Source of the DNA: Alloscardovia omnicolens DSM 21503
Lineage (GTDB): Bacteria > Actinomycetota > Actinomycetes > Actinomycetales > Bifidobacteriaceae
Length of the DNA: 64,000 nucleotides
Assembly (NCBI RefSeq): GCF_000420505.1
Contig: NZ_ATVB01000002.1
Span: 1 to 64,000, forward strand
Direction of reading: 5' to 3'
This document shows, piece after piece, positions 2,829 through 51,597 of this stretch. A model generated the notes under the pieces. That model was not told where the DNA came from and searched no databases. It saw only the letters and a list, made by a program, of their open reading frames with translations. Position 1 is the stretch's first letter. Each line of letters starts with the position of its first letter. Position numbers and translations under genes: made by a program.

Positions 2829-3671
2829 ATGGATTTTGTTACTCTTCACAATGGTGTACGTATGCCTCAACTTGGTTTTGGCGTGTATCAAACTCCGCCA
2901 GATGAAACTGAACGTTGTGTGCGTGAAGCACTCGAAGTGGGATACCGTCATATCGATACTGCTCAAGCCTATAACAATGAAGAAGGCGTGGGAGCAGCTA
3001 TAGCAGCAAGTGGTCTCAATCGTTCAGATATTTTCCTTACCTCAAAGGTATGGTTCTATAAAGATGGGTATCAGGCTGCAAAAGCGTCCATTGATGAATC
3101 ATTGCGTAAGATTGGTTCGGATTATATTGATTTAATGCTGGTACATCAGCCTTTTGGAGATTACTATTCCACGTATCGTGCTTTAGAAGAAGCCTATGAT
3201 GCTGGTAAATTACGTGCAATTGGCGTCTCTAATTTCTATCCTGATAGATTAATTGATTTAGCTCATTTTGCACGCATTGTGCCAATGGTTAATCAAGTAG
3301 AAACGCACGTTTTCTTCCAACAGCAAGAAGCACGACCGTTTATGGATGAACTTAATGTTATTCATGAATCTTGGGCACCTTTTGCTGAAGGCGCGAATAA
3401 TTTCTTTGATAATCCTACGTTGAAGGCTATTGCTGAAGAACACGGTAAAACTGTGGCTCAGGTGGCATTACGTTATCTGCTTCAACGTGGAGTAGTGGTT
3501 ATTCCTAAGTCCACTCATAAAGAACGTATGGAAGAGAATTTCCGCGTCTTTGACTTTGAACTAACCGATGCGAATATGACTTCTCTTGAAACTTTGGATA
3601 CTCATCACAGTCTGTTCCTAGATCATCGTGGTGCTCAAGATGTAAAACGTTTCGTAGGTTTTGCACGCTAA
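2829..3671 (+). CDS. Aldo/keto reductase (2,5-diketo-D-gluconate reductase-like)
   Basis: This cytosolic NADPH-dependent reductase of carbonyl compounds folds as a TIM barrel. At 280 residues it has the full family length. The catalytic tetrad is visible: Asp43 and Tyr48 in HIDTAQAYNNEEGVG, Lys73 in LTSKVWF, and His106 in LMLVHQPFGDYY. The cofactor-binding IPKSTHKERMEENF lies near residue 225. AAGGAGG at 2816 precedes the ATG. The following old-yellow-enzyme gene has its ribosome binding site overlapping this stop codon, so the pair is translationally linked. Substrate cannot be told from sequence. Confidence 0.93.
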   Translation: MDFVTLHNGVRMPQLGFGVYQTPPDETERCVREALEVGYRHIDTAQAYNNEEGVGAAIAASGLNRSDIFLTSKVWFYKDGYQAAKASIDESLRKIGSDYIDLMLVHQPFGDYYSTYRALEEAYDAGKLRAIGVSNFYPDRLIDLAHFARIVPMVNQVETHVFFQQQEARPFMDELNVIHESWAPFAEGANNFFDNPTLKAIAEEHGKTVAQVALRYLLQRGVVVIPKSTHKERMEENFRVFDFELTDANMTSLETLDTHHSLFLDHRGAQDVKRFVGFAR

Positions 3672-3681
3672 GGAGAAAACC

Positions 3682-4716
3682 GTGTCGCAACTACTCTCTG
3701 GCGTAACACTCGGTAATCTTACACTCAAAAATCGAGTGGTTATGCCTCCAATGTGCATGTATGCTGTAGAACGGGAAGATGGCATTGCTACGAACTTCCA
3801 TTTCGCTCACTATGGTGCACGTGCTATCGGAGGCGTTGGACTCATTATTGTTGAAGCAACTGCTGTAGAACCTGATGGTCGAATTACGAACAAAGATTTG
3901 GGCCTGTGGAACGAAGAGCAAAAAGAAGTCTTACATAAACTCACAACGAGTGTGCATGAACTTGGCTCTCAAGTTGCTATTCAGCTCAATCATGCGGGAC
4001 GTAAAGCTGTTGATGCGCGTATTGCTTATGCTCCAAGTCCGCTTGCTTTTAATGAGGATTCTGCTGTTCCTCACGAGATGAGCAGTGAGGATATTGAGCG
4101 TGTAAAACAAGCTTTTGTTGATGCAGCAATCCGCGCTCGCGATGCCAAATTCGATGCCATTGAGATACATGCGGCTCACGGGTATTTGTTAAGTGAGTTC
4201 TTAGAACCATTAACTAATCAGCGTAGCGATAATTATGGAGGTAGTTTAGAAAATCGTTATCGTTTACTTCATGAAATTGTATGTGCAATACGCGCAATTT
4301 TTGATGACTCGTTGTGGGTGCGGCTGTCTTTGAGTGCTTATGATGATACGGAACGCCAAAATAGTCGTGAGGACTGGCAGCAGATTGGTCGATGGTTAGA
4401 AGCCGATGGTGTGGATTGCATTGATGTATCCACAGGCGCAGTCACTCCTGCTCGTCCTAATATTCCTATGCGCCCTGGTTACCAGGTGCCGTTTACTATT
4501 TTGATGAAACAAGCAGTGAATATTCCTGTGACAGCTGTGGGTTTAATAGATTCTGCGCAGTTAGCTGAACATATTGTTTCATCAGGGCAAGCAGATCTTG
4601 TTGAAATAGGTCGTGGATTATTGCGTAACCCACAATGGGTAGCCGATGCAGCACGAGTTTTGCATGAAAAAGACTTTGCTGTATATAACGCATCATATGA
4701 ACGTGCTTACCATTAG
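3682..4716 (+). CDS. NADH:flavin oxidoreductase, old yellow enzyme family (YqjM/NamA-like)
   Basis: It is an FMN-dependent ene-reductase that reduces activated C=C bonds with NAD(P)H. The 344-residue protein shows the YqjM-type active site: MPPMCMYA with Cys25 and Tyr27, the FMN/substrate histidine pair in EIHAAHGYLLSEF (about residues 163-168), and the NQRSDNYGGSLENR block. The C-terminal VEIGRGLLRNPQW binds the FMN phosphate. GTG at 3682 is chosen over a TTG at 3661 because AAGGAG (3670-3675) is correctly spaced and overlaps the upstream stop codon. With the preceding aldo/keto reductase it forms a two-gene redox unit, perhaps for electrophile or aldehyde stress; that role is inference. Confidence 0.93.
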   Translation: MSQLLSGVTLGNLTLKNRVVMPPMCMYAVEREDGIATNFHFAHYGARAIGGVGLIIVEATAVEPDGRITNKDLGLWNEEQKEVLHKLTTSVHELGSQVAIQLNHAGRKAVDARIAYAPSPLAFNEDSAVPHEMSSEDIERVKQAFVDAAIRARDAKFDAIEIHAAHGYLLSEFLEPLTNQRSDNYGGSLENRYRLLHEIVCAIRAIFDDSLWVRLSLSAYDDTERQNSREDWQQIGRWLEADGVDCIDVSTGAVTPARPNIPMRPGYQVPFTILMKQAVNIPVTAVGLIDSAQLAEHIVSSGQADLVEIGRGLLRNPQWVADAARVLHEKDFAVYNASYERAYH

Positions 4717-38381: not shown

Positions 38382-39599
38382 ATGTCCGATGTGTACAGTG
38401 GTGCAGAACTTTTGTCGTTACAAGATGTAGTTAACTATGATGCCATAAATTCTCAAGGTCGCGGTGGTGCACGTCATTTAAGCGCTGTTTTACCTGCTTT
38501 ATCCGCCGCATTGGGAACGCCAGTTTCTACTGCAATTCATAATGATGCTGAGCGCTTACGAGTAGATTTAGGCGTTCCTCATGCATCCTCTGTTATTGTT
38601 GTGCTTATCGATGGTCTGGGTTTTTGGAATCTCATGGAACGTAAAGGTCATGCTCCTTACTTGCGTTCTTTAGTCAATCAAAGTCATAATCAACAGCCAA
38701 TTTCTTCAAGTTTTCCTACCACTACTGTTGCAGCGCTCAGCGTTTTCGGTACGGGAACGTGCCCAGGTTTAACGGGAATGACTGGTTATTCTCAAATCAA
38801 TCCAGACAACGGTCAGCTTTCCCAAATGATTCAATTTTCTAACGGCGCTAATCCTGAACTTATTCAGCGTGAGCCAACTATTTTTGAGCAGTTAAGTGCT
38901 CAGGATGTGCGCGTTACGACTTCAGGATTCCCTAAATTTGCTAATTCTGCTTTAACGCGCGCTGCTTTACGAGGTTCGAACTATATTTCTGGAGCAAATC
39001 CATCTCAGCGTATTACTACTGCCGCTCGCTCGTCGTTTGAGCCAGGTTTAACATACGTATATATTCGCGATGCAGATAAAATGGGGCATCAATATGGGTG
39101 GGATAATGAGCGTTGGATAGGAACTTTTGAACGTGTCGATGCTCAGCTGAAAAGTTTGGCTAAAAAAGCGGCGCCAGGCACGCTGATTGCTATTACTGCC
39201 GATCATGGCATGATTGCGTCTGACAGTTCGACGCGCATTGATATTGCTGAGCGTCCTGAACTGCAGGAAGGCGTTGTCCTCGTTGGCGGTGAACCGAGAG
39301 CAGTGTCCTTATATGTTGAAGAGGGAATGAATCCGAACGATGTTGCGCAACGGTGGCGTCGTGTTCTTGAAGATAAAGCACGTGTCTATACAAAAGATGA
39401 AGCTATTGCTGCCGGATTATATGGTCCTGTGCATGATCGCGTTCTTCCGTATATCGGTGATGTTATTGCTATGGCGTCCTCAAATGTGACGATAGTAGAT
39501 TCTCGCACTCAAAGCGATGTAGCGACGCATTTGCCGGCTGTGCACGGGTCCTTAACACGTGCTGAGCTTGATATTCCGTTCCTTCTGGACGTTGTGTAA
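38382..39599 (+). CDS. Alkaline phosphatase superfamily phosphodiesterase/nucleotide pyrophosphatase
   Basis: It hydrolyses a phosphodiester or pyrophosphate bond with two metal ions. The 405-residue protein has the metal-binding and nucleophile region VIVVLIDGLGFWNLMERKG and SSFPTTTVAALSVFGTG (Thr nucleophile within PTTT). It also has ITADHGMIASD for the second metal and VHGSLTRAELDIPFLL near the end. No signal peptide or membrane helix is visible, so it is probably cytosolic. Actinobacterial homologues are often annotated as nucleotide pyrophosphatases; substrate is unknown. The start at 38382 is set by position after a -10-like box. Confidence 0.85.
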   Translation: MSDVYSGAELLSLQDVVNYDAINSQGRGGARHLSAVLPALSAALGTPVSTAIHNDAERLRVDLGVPHASSVIVVLIDGLGFWNLMERKGHAPYLRSLVNQSHNQQPISSSFPTTTVAALSVFGTGTCPGLTGMTGYSQINPDNGQLSQMIQFSNGANPELIQREPTIFEQLSAQDVRVTTSGFPKFANSALTRAALRGSNYISGANPSQRITTAARSSFEPGLTYVYIRDADKMGHQYGWDNERWIGTFERVDAQLKSLAKKAAPGTLIAITADHGMIASDSSTRIDIAERPELQEGVVLVGGEPRAVSLYVEEGMNPNDVAQRWRRVLEDKARVYTKDEAIAAGLYGPVHDRVLPYIGDVIAMASSNVTIVDSRTQSDVATHLPAVHGSLTRAELDIPFLLDVV

Positions 39600-39660: not shown

Positions 39661-39759
39661 AACGAGAGGACTACTGTCAGTTACCGCACAGTAAAAGTTG
39701 TGCTATGAAAATAGCAACTCAACTTTTACTAATAAGTAAGATGATCAGTAGTCCTCGTT
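39661..39759. repeat. Nested 99-bp inverted-repeat element
   Basis: Outer arms AACGAGAGGACTACTG (39661-39676) and CAGTAGTCCTCGTT (39746-39759) pair except for a 2-base gap. Inside them AGTAAAAGTTG (39690-39700) pairs perfectly with CAACTTTTACT (39720-39730). Innermost, TGCTAT (39701-39706) pairs with ATAGCA (39711-39716) across a GAAA loop. No open reading frame lies inside. Confidence 0.7.
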
Positions 39760-39771
39760 GTTACTCAGCTT

Positions 39772-40305
39772 TTACTGCTTAATAAGTTTATGAGTTTTTG
39801 AAATCGTTGTTCCAGGTGCAGTTACATCAAATGAAATCTGACCATTACTATAAGTAAATTTCTTCGTTGATTCTTGTGCTGTCAATCCAACTGCTTTGCT
39901 CATGGCATCGCTGTCTGCTTGCGAGGTCCATGTGTAATCACCAGCTGTTGTTGGAGGCGTAAAAGTTCCCTTCCAATACAAACTAGATTCTTCTGATGCT
40001 TGAGGCTGTGCCCACGTAATAGTAATAGTGTCGTTTGTAATCTTGGCTATTAAATCCGAGCCTTCGTTGGCATCTGTTTTCCATGTGTCGGTTAAATCGG
40101 CAGGTTTTTCTGTAGATTCTTCTTGACTATTTTGAGATTTTTCTTTTGTTGAGTCTTCGGAGGTATCTACTTTTTTCTGCTGACTTGCGTTGTTATCGCT
40201 CGTTGTATTACTCGGCAGACTAAGGTTTACTGAACATGTACTCAGTGTTCCTATTCCTAAAACAGTTGCAAGTAGTCCAGCAGCAATCTTTGTGAATCAG
40301 GGCAT
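39772..40305 (-). pseudogene. Lipoprotein gene interrupted by an in-frame stop at codon 3
   Basis: Reading the minus strand from ATG 40305, with AAGGTGAT 7-14 nt upstream, gives Met-Pro and then TGA (40297-40299). The same frame then runs open for 174 codons to TAA at 39772. After the stop it continues as a typical lipoprotein signal (FTKIAAGLLATVLGIGTLS then TC with the lipobox Cys at about codon 24). A Ser/Asn/Lys/Glu linker follows, then a beta-rich domain (TITITWAQPQASE, LYWKGTFTPPTTAGDYTWTS, FTYSNGQISFDVTA). No ATG, GTG or TTG lies in the signal region after the stop. I recall similar small secreted domains in bifidobacteria, but they have no known role. A single base change would restore it. 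Confidence 0.75.
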
Positions 40306-40586
40306 AACATAATCACCTTGAATATAATTCAACTTACTTTACTATTATTAAAAATGTTAAAAGATTACATAAAATTTGAAGAAAATCAAAAAATGTTCAA
40401 TATTCTTTATAAGAATCGTGATAATTCCAAAAGTTTAGCGCGATTTATGCGTACCATAGACTGCTCATTATATGAGCAGAAAGCAGATGAGTAATTGAGA
40501 AATTAATCTGATTAAAAACGCGCGTAAACCACGTGAATATTTGAAGAAATGACTAAATTTAACAGTTTCGCCGAGTTAATTGTATA
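40306..40586. other. AT-rich spacer with a small hairpin
   Basis: No gene is supported. CTGCTCAT (40461-40468) and ATGAGCAG (40472-40479) form an 8-bp hairpin. The promoter of the broken lipoprotein gene must lie at its left end. The stretch is visibly richer in A and T than the flanking genes. Confidence 0.5.
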
Positions 40587-40641: not shown

Positions 40642-41781
40642 CTAGGACTGCGAACCGAAAAGAATATCGTCCCAAGCTGGGATAGCTGAACGCTTACGCT
40701 TAGGAGGCTGAGAAGTTCGGTTGCTATTGGCGCTTCCGTTTTCGTCTTCTTCTTTGTTGCTGCCGGCATTGGAAGACTGATCAGAGCCAGAGATATGAGA
40801 GTCCTCTTGATTGATAACCGGAGCTGAATCTTCAGTATCATCCATATCGAGTGGAACATCTGCGGCCTGAAGTCGTGATGCCTTCTTTCCTGATTGGAAA
40901 TCTGATGGATCAGCCAAAGTACGGCGTACAGCAGGTAACTGTGTGCTACTTTGTGACTGTTCTTCGTGTTGCGAACCTGCTGATTGAGGCGACTGACCAG
41001 AAACAATAGCATTAAAAGCGCCTGTGCTCATATGCGTATTATCTCGCATAGAACTCATAGAAACAGTTTCGAAGGTGCCTGTGCTGGTAGACACAGCTTG
41101 ATTAGAAAATGGAGGAGAGGAGTGCGTAGCACCTACAGCTGGAATAGCATCTGTGCTGAATAGCTCTTTATCTACAGGTGAGGTTGCTGCAGACATTTCG
41201 CGCAGTAAACGCTTTGCAGGTGTGTTGACGCTCACCACAGAATGGTTGCGTGAATTAAACATCCATTCAGCGCTTTCTTTGTGTTCTCCTAAACTGTAAT
41301 TCGCCTGAATGCGCCATGGATTATGCCCCTGACGTGATGCGCTCCACTGTACATCAGCGTAATCACCGCCCATAGAAGCAAGCGAAAAAGCAATAATATC
41401 TTTAACTTTCGAAGTATTTCCTTCTGTGCCAACAACAGTTTCTAAGAACTGAGAAGTAATGAAAACCTTTTCTTTTTCTACTGGAATAGCAAAACGGTTT
41501 ACAGCAGAAACGGATACACCGTATTCTTGAGCGATGGTCTGTGGGCTCTGTCCGGAACGGATAAGTGACTGAATAGTGGACAGCGGAAGAATTTTTTCTG
41601 GCTGTTTTTCTTCCTGTTGAGTAACTGTCTGTGCTTTATTGCGAGCAGAAGCAATAGCACGTTCAAGTTCCGAGGTAATTTCTAAAGAAAAAAGATCTCC
41701 AGTCAGTGGGTCTTTTACTATAAGGTCACCGTTAGCGTCAACGCGAACGAAAGTTACCGGAATACTTGAATTCTCAGCCAT
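40642..41781 (-). CDS. sepH: Septation protein SepH (DUF3071)
   Basis: SepH is an actinobacterial cell-division protein that binds FtsZ and promotes its assembly. The 379-residue product has the conserved N-terminal DUF3071 region (1-190) with DANGDLIVKDPLTGDLFSLEI and a helix-turn-helix-like stretch LIRSGQSPQTIAQEYGVSVS. The WSASRQGHNPWRIQANY block follows, and then a long Ser/Gln/Asp-rich disordered part ending in the basic PPKRKRSAIPAWDDILFG, typical of the FtsZ-binding end. AAGGGG precedes the ATG at 41781. It is divergent from the DUF4193-dut operon, the neighbourhood known from Streptomyces. Identification rests on the N-terminal domain and context. Confidence 0.88.
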   Translation of the reverse strand: MAENSSIPVTFVRVDANGDLIVKDPLTGDLFSLEITSELERAIASARNKAQTVTQQEEKQPEKILPLSTIQSLIRSGQSPQTIAQEYGVSVSAVNRFAIPVEKEKVFITSQFLETVVGTEGNTSKVKDIIAFSLASMGGDYADVQWSASRQGHNPWRIQANYSLGEHKESAEWMFNSRNHSVVSVNTPAKRLLREMSAATSPVDKELFSTDAIPAVGATHSSPPFSNQAVSTSTGTFETVSMSSMRDNTHMSTGAFNAIVSGQSPQSAGSQHEEQSQSSTQLPAVRRTLADPSDFQSGKKASRLQAADVPLDMDDTEDSAPVINQEDSHISGSDQSSNAGSNKEEDENGSANSNRTSQPPKRKRSAIPAWDDILFGSQS

Positions 41782-50974: not shown

Positions 50975-51597
50975 ATGAAAAAGGTAAGTTTTAGTTTTTT
51001 GCCCTAATTTTTATAGTCCTATCATTGGTATTGGTTCCAACAGTTGTCCAAGCGCAGCCTGTTCATGATGGAAATTTTATTGATAATGTCCAAATTGCTC
51101 TCTTAAATGAAGCTAAGGGACGTGGATATTCTGTCAACACTATTTCTGATTTAACTGTAGGCACTGGCATACTAGAAAATACTTCCACTAGTCCAGAAGC
51201 ACTTGCTCAGGAAATAGCAGATGTATTTTTCCCCGTACGGAATACTAGTAGTGATTCATTAGAGATCTCGGAAAGAAGTTTTAGACAATACACTGCAAAA
51301 GTTTTTGCTGGTGTTCCATTGTCGGGAGCGTGCAATATCTATCAAGATTTTGAAGCTACCGTCTCTCAATATAAGGTGAGAAGCTATAAACTTCTTGGCG
51401 GATCTTATGTCAGTGGTGTATGTTTATTTGCTTGGTCTCATAATAGAAATTGGGCTGAAAAAGTAGGTAGAGAGTTTCATATAAATATGAAAGGTACTGC
51501 GAGTGCTGTTGTAAAGGGAGCACCTGTGTCTTTTAACCCTACTTTTATGGCAATTTTTGATGTGCGGGAGAATGACTTACAGCAGCATGTTCAGTAA
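50975..51597 (+). pseudogene. Secreted protein gene, frameshifted in the signal-peptide T-run
   Basis: AAAGGAGAGGG (50960-50970) and ATG 50975 start a frame that reads MKKVSFSFLP and stops at TAA 51005-51007. From the T-run TTTTTT (50995-51000) onward a second frame, open from after TAG 50992, runs to 51597. Adding one T joins them into MKKVSFSFFALIFIVLS then LVLVPTVVQAQ, a textbook signal peptide with cleavage after AQ, giving a 207-residue precursor. The mature part matches no family I know. It has two Cys (SGACNIY, GVCLFAW) that could form a disulfide. As written it cannot be made except by slippage. It is 9 nt upstream of a 3-TM protein and shares its AT-rich composition. Confidence 0.72.

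Follow-up and report, generated by a model that had tools for sequence, protein, structure and literature searches.

A phage-type lipoprotein gene of Alloscardovia omnicolens, probably acquired laterally and recently inactivated by a nonsense mutation at codon 3

Results

An otherwise open lipoprotein gene with TGA as its third codon

The window analysed here is a stretch of 64,000 nucleotides of Alloscardovia omnicolens DSM 21503 (contig NZ_ATVB01000002.1, positions 1 to 64,000). A lipoprotein gene lies on its minus strand between a sepH-like gene and a gene of the phosphodiesterase family, with the following features:

38382..39599, plus strand: flanking phosphodiesterase/nucleotide pyrophosphatase-family gene (PF01663, by Pfam)
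39666..39756, no strand assigned: inverted repeat in the interval between the lipoprotein and phosphodiesterase genes, likely a shared terminator
39772..40305, minus strand: disrupted lipoprotein gene, ATG to TAA (sequence reading and homologues)
39775..40104, minus strand: conserved beta-barrel-like domain, PADLT.TW ... SLYWKG ... WTSQ ... KKFTY (alignment A1 and structure model/comparison)
40111..40233, minus strand: low-complexity Ser/Lys/Glu-rich linker with low model confidence (sequence and structure model)
40234..40245, minus strand: lipobox LSTC, its Cys invariant in alignment A1
40297..40299, minus strand: in-frame TGA, codon 3 (sequence reading)
40312..40319, minus strand: Shine-Dalgarno-like AAGGTGAT, 6 nt before ATG 40305 and 1 nt before the out-of-frame ATG 40310
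40642..41781, minus strand: flanking sepH-like gene (PF11268, DUF3071, by Pfam)

Read on the minus strand, the gene begins with ATG (40305-40303), CCC, and TGA (40299-40297), after which 174 sense codons (40296-39775) run to a TAA at 39774-39772, in agreement with a preliminary description of this DNA. The same description held that no alternative start precedes the lipobox, and reading of the in-frame codons from the TGA to the lipobox Cys (40236-40234) did not reveal any ATG, GTG, or TTG. None of 2000 base shuffles was open over 174 codons and homologues of the frame reached a best E-value of 7e-27 in the family genome search, so the frame is not a product of chance; it is a real gene. As in a pseudogene, the frame is interrupted relative to intact homologues and the usual rescue start is absent. 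The genome contains no second copy of the gene, and a promoter scan yielded no more sites than shuffled sequence. Divergence of the N-terminus from those of relatives is too high for the ancestral codon at the TGA site to be recovered.

A second nearby ATG (40310-40308) opens another frame of just 17 codons, and AAGGTGAT, which presumably pairs with the anti-Shine-Dalgarno sequence, lies close to it. This arrangement would suit a start lost by a frame change from ATG 40310, or on/off switching by slippage, but we consider both very improbable. The distance from ATG 40305 to the lipobox Cys is 24 codons (Cys counted), near the 20-23 of intact relatives, and there is no tract of at least 4 identical bases from the two ATGs to codon 7, leaving reversible slippage without a substrate. 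We also rejected a programmed frameshift from ATG 40310, for which no slippery site was seen and whose product would have no charged N-region, and repeat-driven switching, given that no tract lies near codon 3.

Homologues in the bacterial family

We searched 189 genomes of the bacterial family, its own included, with a strict limit of E<=1e-10 and a loose limit of 0.1. Relatives at the strict limit were present in 20 of the 188 other genomes; the loose limit was passed by 37 of the 189, and the majority of rows weaker than 1e-10 look like chance matches. Intact start, signal peptide, and lipobox were found in 18 of the 20 strict relatives. At the same limit, L022 has an open but diverged frame, and L019, assigned to Bombiscardovia coagulans through its match with L046, has no signal peptide and carries an in-frame TGA ahead of the domain. 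Among weaker matches, L023 is divided between frames and L024 is a fragment. The window gene has the family domain and lacks a translatable start and a charged N-region before the lipobox. It carries a TGA at codon 3, whereas 18 of the 20 strict relatives have such a start and N-region; we therefore regard it as belonging to the family by ancestry, as a broken rather than a functional copy.

Alignment A1 comprises the window protein and 13 of the 18 intact copies, with five near-duplicates excluded. It contains 20 invariant columns over 14 sequences (SLYW.G, WTS, K.F.Y, and G.T), which are kept in the window protein by construction, since that protein is one of the 14. We also made a leave-one-out conservation count with 26 sequences, namely the 18 intact copies, 7 of 10 viral loci, and the window. 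The window protein departed from 9 of 42 conserved columns, as did that of the lone lineage L018, while the Scardovia wiggsiae copy (L004) departed from 4 of 43. As the departures of the window copy equal those of L018, selection probably acted on it until lately. In 11 of 12 within-group pairs of close intact copies dN/dS was 0.06-0.35, values that show purifying selection; it was 0.88 in the twelfth pair, the nearly identical L012 and L014. Between the window copy and L004 or L009 synonymous sites are saturated, hence no dN/dS is given.

The lipobox and the predicted fold

Downstream of the stop, the preliminary description had recognised a perfect lipoprotein signal, a disordered linker, and a beta-rich domain. 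The signal is good but falls short of perfect: the lipobox Cys is kept, while LSTC places Thr at -1, where Ala or Ser stands in 13 of 13 A1 relatives, so some of the departure from conserved positions bears on lipidation. Lipoboxes usually have G, A, or S at this position. The other two elements agree with our results, the linker being the low-complexity stretch listed above and the domain being modelled as eight beta strands. With A1 as the alignment, the window protein model had a mean pLDDT of 73.8, with 74-95 in the domain blocks and below 50 in the first 60 residues.

Foldseek returned no PDB match to this model at E<=0.001, and two nameless BFVD entries matched it at E about 1e-6. Using VIA-align, we observed similarity to avidin (Z 8.3, rmsd 3.2, 100 aligned residues), a Z that can mean a mere common arrangement, and to a lipocalin-family protein (Z 8.3, rmsd 4.2, 102 aligned residues), which may likewise reflect common arrangement only. 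Searches by sequence gave a best E of 0.071 among solved structures, regarded as chance, no Pfam family above cut-off, and at most weak matches in NCBIfam, PHROGs, and PADLOC, with PADLOC giving none for the window protein itself. The profile of the SP_0198 family lipoprotein (NF040528) matched weakly, with E=0.004 and a score of 17 bits where the cut-off is 100. Structures of the SP_0198 lipoprotein (PDB 3ge2 and 5cyb) aligned to the window model with Z of 6.9 and 6.8, rmsd 3.5, and 21-22% identity over 82 residues, a match to the predicted structure that carries no sign of a common function.

A species-specific gene at a variable chromosomal site

Each of the four genus relatives has a gap without the lipoprotein between the sepH-like gene (a name that we take to apply to the flanking PF11268 gene) and the phosphodiesterase gene. 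The lipoprotein gene was found in none of the four other genus genomes, and the same spot held no relics of it in any of them. No other gene was noticed in the gap of three relatives; in the fourth, G002, it contains a RelB/YafQ-type toxin-antitoxin pair (L057:3957-4570), indicating that this spot takes inserts. The window lipoprotein gene is a stray, species-specific gene, present in one species of the genus. On its phosphodiesterase side, the inverted repeat contains a second hairpin, occurs once in the genome, and has converging genes on either side; it is probably a two-way terminator. The preliminary description did not recognise the gene as a lipoprotein of phage or prophage type, and it mentions neither that the insert is specific to this species and occupies a site that varies nor that the lipobox differs from those of the family.

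TGA acts as a stop in this host

Among the 42 main window genes, 30 stop with TAA, 10 with TAG, and 2 with TGA, a rarity that made recoding worth testing. RF2 (TIGR00020) scored above cut-off in all five genus genomes, and SelA was not found. A tRNA-Sec search gave twelve tRNA-like matches, none above cut-off; the eight that were inspected are ordinary tRNAs, including tRNA-Trp CCA, the one tRNA-Trp seen among the inspected tRNA loci. TGA acts as a stop in this host, and we rejected its recoding to Sec or Trp on the basis of these results. Read-through by recoding is also made unlikely by the window copies of genes shared with the nearest relative, which contain no internal stop except at the end of one doubtful small ORF.

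The lipoprotein might nonetheless still be made, either by read-through of the TGA or from a start other than ATG, GTG, or TTG. The frame and the majority of conserved residues are retained, and an ATT lies four codons past the TGA. A start at this ATT would provide no charged N-region, however, and the Shine-Dalgarno-like site is positioned for the ATG ahead of the stop. Together with the presence of RF2, the CCA tRNA-Trp, the lack of SelA, and the departures at conserved positions, these points make continued production distinctly unlikely.

Mutation or sequence error

The TGA was read from a single draft assembly of 43 contigs. Base-calling or assembly error could have introduced it, in which case the gene would be intact in the living strain. 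We compared the window with its nearest relative, G003, for which 58 ORFs in 72 kb were considered: 44 matched the window at >=80 bits, 1 matched weakly, and 13 did not match, several of these lying beyond the window ends. Among the 44 shared ORFs, 35 aligned over >=80% of their length and were unflagged. The nine flagged ORFs comprised two with partial coverage (one at the window edge), six stop-to-stop ORFs in which stops or pieces in other frames lay close to the start, upstream of the listed starts of the window ORFs, and one doubtful small ORF that is stopped at column 96 of its 104. Over the 54,510 aligned bases of the 44 ORFs, the window side had no internal stop or frame break, save at the end of the doubtful small ORF.

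According to the preliminary description, another gene of the window is likewise broken just inside the signal peptide, and this is correct. The gene, at 50975-51597 (+), would encode an exported protein; the frame of its ATG ends at a TAA (51005-51007), and the remainder continues open in a different frame, beginning at a T6 run. It belongs to no Pfam family, and the four other genomes of the genus contain no homologue. The two lesions thus both affect species-specific genes, which account for about 4% of the compared coding bases (arithmetic made after seeing the data).

Some sequencing methods are prone to mistakes at sites such as a T6 run, and the break there, like the draft state of the assembly, speaks for error. 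The TGA in the lipoprotein gene, in contrast, is outside any homopolymer, and the shared ORFs are free of internal breaks apart from the exception given above. Two broken species-specific genes suit the decay of dispensable genes and fit it better than random error, a pattern that was noticed after the fact. Error at the TGA is unlikely, but less so than continued production of the protein. The preliminary description had offered a very recent mutation, read-through, or a sequence error. This was the right trio; mutation is best supported, recoding read-through is unlikely for the reasons given, and error keeps a small share.

We also considered how old a mutational loss might be, using an assumed model of neutral decay in which transitions were weighted fourfold and indels amounted to 5% of substitutions. 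Under this model, the chance of no second lesion was 0.68 if neutral divergence was 1%, falling to 0.14 for 5% and to 0.02 for 10%. As this chance drops with divergence, the loss, if real, would be recent.

Separate observations were made while comparing these two genomes. In the topoisomerase-A-like gene of G003, a TGA (C1, about 1247084-1247086; L074) stands opposite a Trp codon of the window, and in its sepH-like gene the reading frame shifts at a run of A (about 1242700; L054); these lesions are either errors in the G003 assembly or real. The window also carries an FMN oxidoreductase-family gene (PF00724) at 3661-4716 (+) that has no match in the 72 kb of G003 used for comparison.

The lipoprotein family in phages and prophages

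Matches to the family were found in 16 of 50,697 phage records, among them Bifidobacterium phage PMBT6 and Streptomyces phages. The PMBT6 lipoprotein, QDF14842, is encoded between HTH/regulator-like genes on one side and a peptidase and an integrase on the other. In the two Streptomyces phages that were inspected, no integrase or repressor was annotated in the stretch viewed. Ten IMG/VR loci matched, with a PMBT6-like M78-type peptidase (M78 being its Pfam name) in 9 of 10 and a PMBT6-like integrase in 7 of 10. Of 15 named bacterial loci, five (L040, L041, L042, L044, and L045) had a PMBT6-like integrase and 9 or 10 had no PMBT6-like neighbours. The integrase and peptidase of the phage lysogeny region, a feature of some members, are absent beside the window gene, and no PMBT6 neighbour protein was detected anywhere in the 64 kb window at E<=1e-4. 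Because PMBT6-like genes are lacking both in the window and at these 9 or 10 bacterial loci, a household role of the lipoprotein in its hosts is possible.

QDF14842 of PMBT6 (MK932884), whose family also occurs in Bifidobacterium prophages, is 39.9% identical to the window protein, with 95% of the protein covered, and the two have in common a signal peptide, a Ser/Lys-rich linker, and the barrel domain. The PMBT6 copy is intact and lies in a lysogeny region, whereas that of the window has the stop at codon 3 and stands alone in the chromosome. The copy of Scardovia wiggsiae F0424 (L035/L004) is, like that of the window, a single chromosomal gene with no PMBT6-like phage genes within 6 kb, and has 47-51% identity to it in the domain; unlike the window copy, it is intact and in another neighbourhood, with no sepH or phosphodiesterase match nearby. 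The copy of Bombiscardovia coagulans DSM 22924 (L019/L046) is likewise broken on its N-terminal side, an in-frame TGA directly preceding a domain that is open apart from this, but its signal peptide and linker are wholly missing and conserved positions are changed.

Discussion

We propose that the window contains a laterally acquired phage-type lipoprotein gene that was probably inactivated recently by a nonsense mutation. The lesion and the open frame are observed directly, and the homology, the connection of relatives with phages, the restriction of the gene to this species within its genus, and the use of TGA as a stop are likewise shown; we infer the function, the acquisition from a phage, the recency, and the loss by point mutation. 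The gene would be a stray chromosomal copy of a lipoprotein family found in temperate bifidobacterial phages, where it sits close to the integrase in the lysogeny region. When intact, the protein would have been exported and lipid-anchored at the Cys, with a small beta barrel resembling lipocalins and avidin on the outer side of the membrane. Its gene position and protein type suggest that it would most likely have blocked DNA entry of related phages, resulting in superinfection exclusion. A nonsense change would then have created the TGA at codon 3. As no usable start stands ahead of the lipobox, no lipoprotein would be produced, and the remaining frame would be intact because the loss was recent and the gene dispensable.

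The proposed function draws on an analogy. Ltp of Streptococcus thermophilus phage TP-J34 is reported to be a small lipoprotein that is encoded in the lysogeny module of this temperate phage and keeps DNA from being injected (PMC3952083); the present family resembles it in protein type and gene position. For a protein of a C. acnes phage, a comparable role has been proposed (PMC11480721). No Ltp-type family appeared among the six Pfam hits that A1 members gave at E<=0.1. The predicted fold of the window protein is beta, unlike that of Ltp, which we take to be helical. By analogy, superinfection exclusion may thus be the function of the family, without any claim of membership in the Ltp family. 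The literature, at the level of titles and abstract openings, yielded no description of this bifidobacterial lipoprotein family.

A broader reading, which we put forward tentatively, is that the intact family is an uncharacterised type of lipoprotein, lipocalin/avidin-like in fold, with which temperate phages of actinobacteria exclude superinfection. Chromosomes of the bifidobacterial family would have captured it as stand-alone anti-phage genes and lost it again by N-terminal breaks, and the window gene would be seen just after such a loss.

The broken lipoprotein gene of A. omnicolens would itself be a case of ordinary decay, in which accessory phage-type genes come and go. A by-product of its analysis is an unnamed bifidobacterial lipoprotein family tied to phage lysogeny regions, and this link, which can be tested, points towards a possible phage-exclusion protein of the bifidobacterial family.
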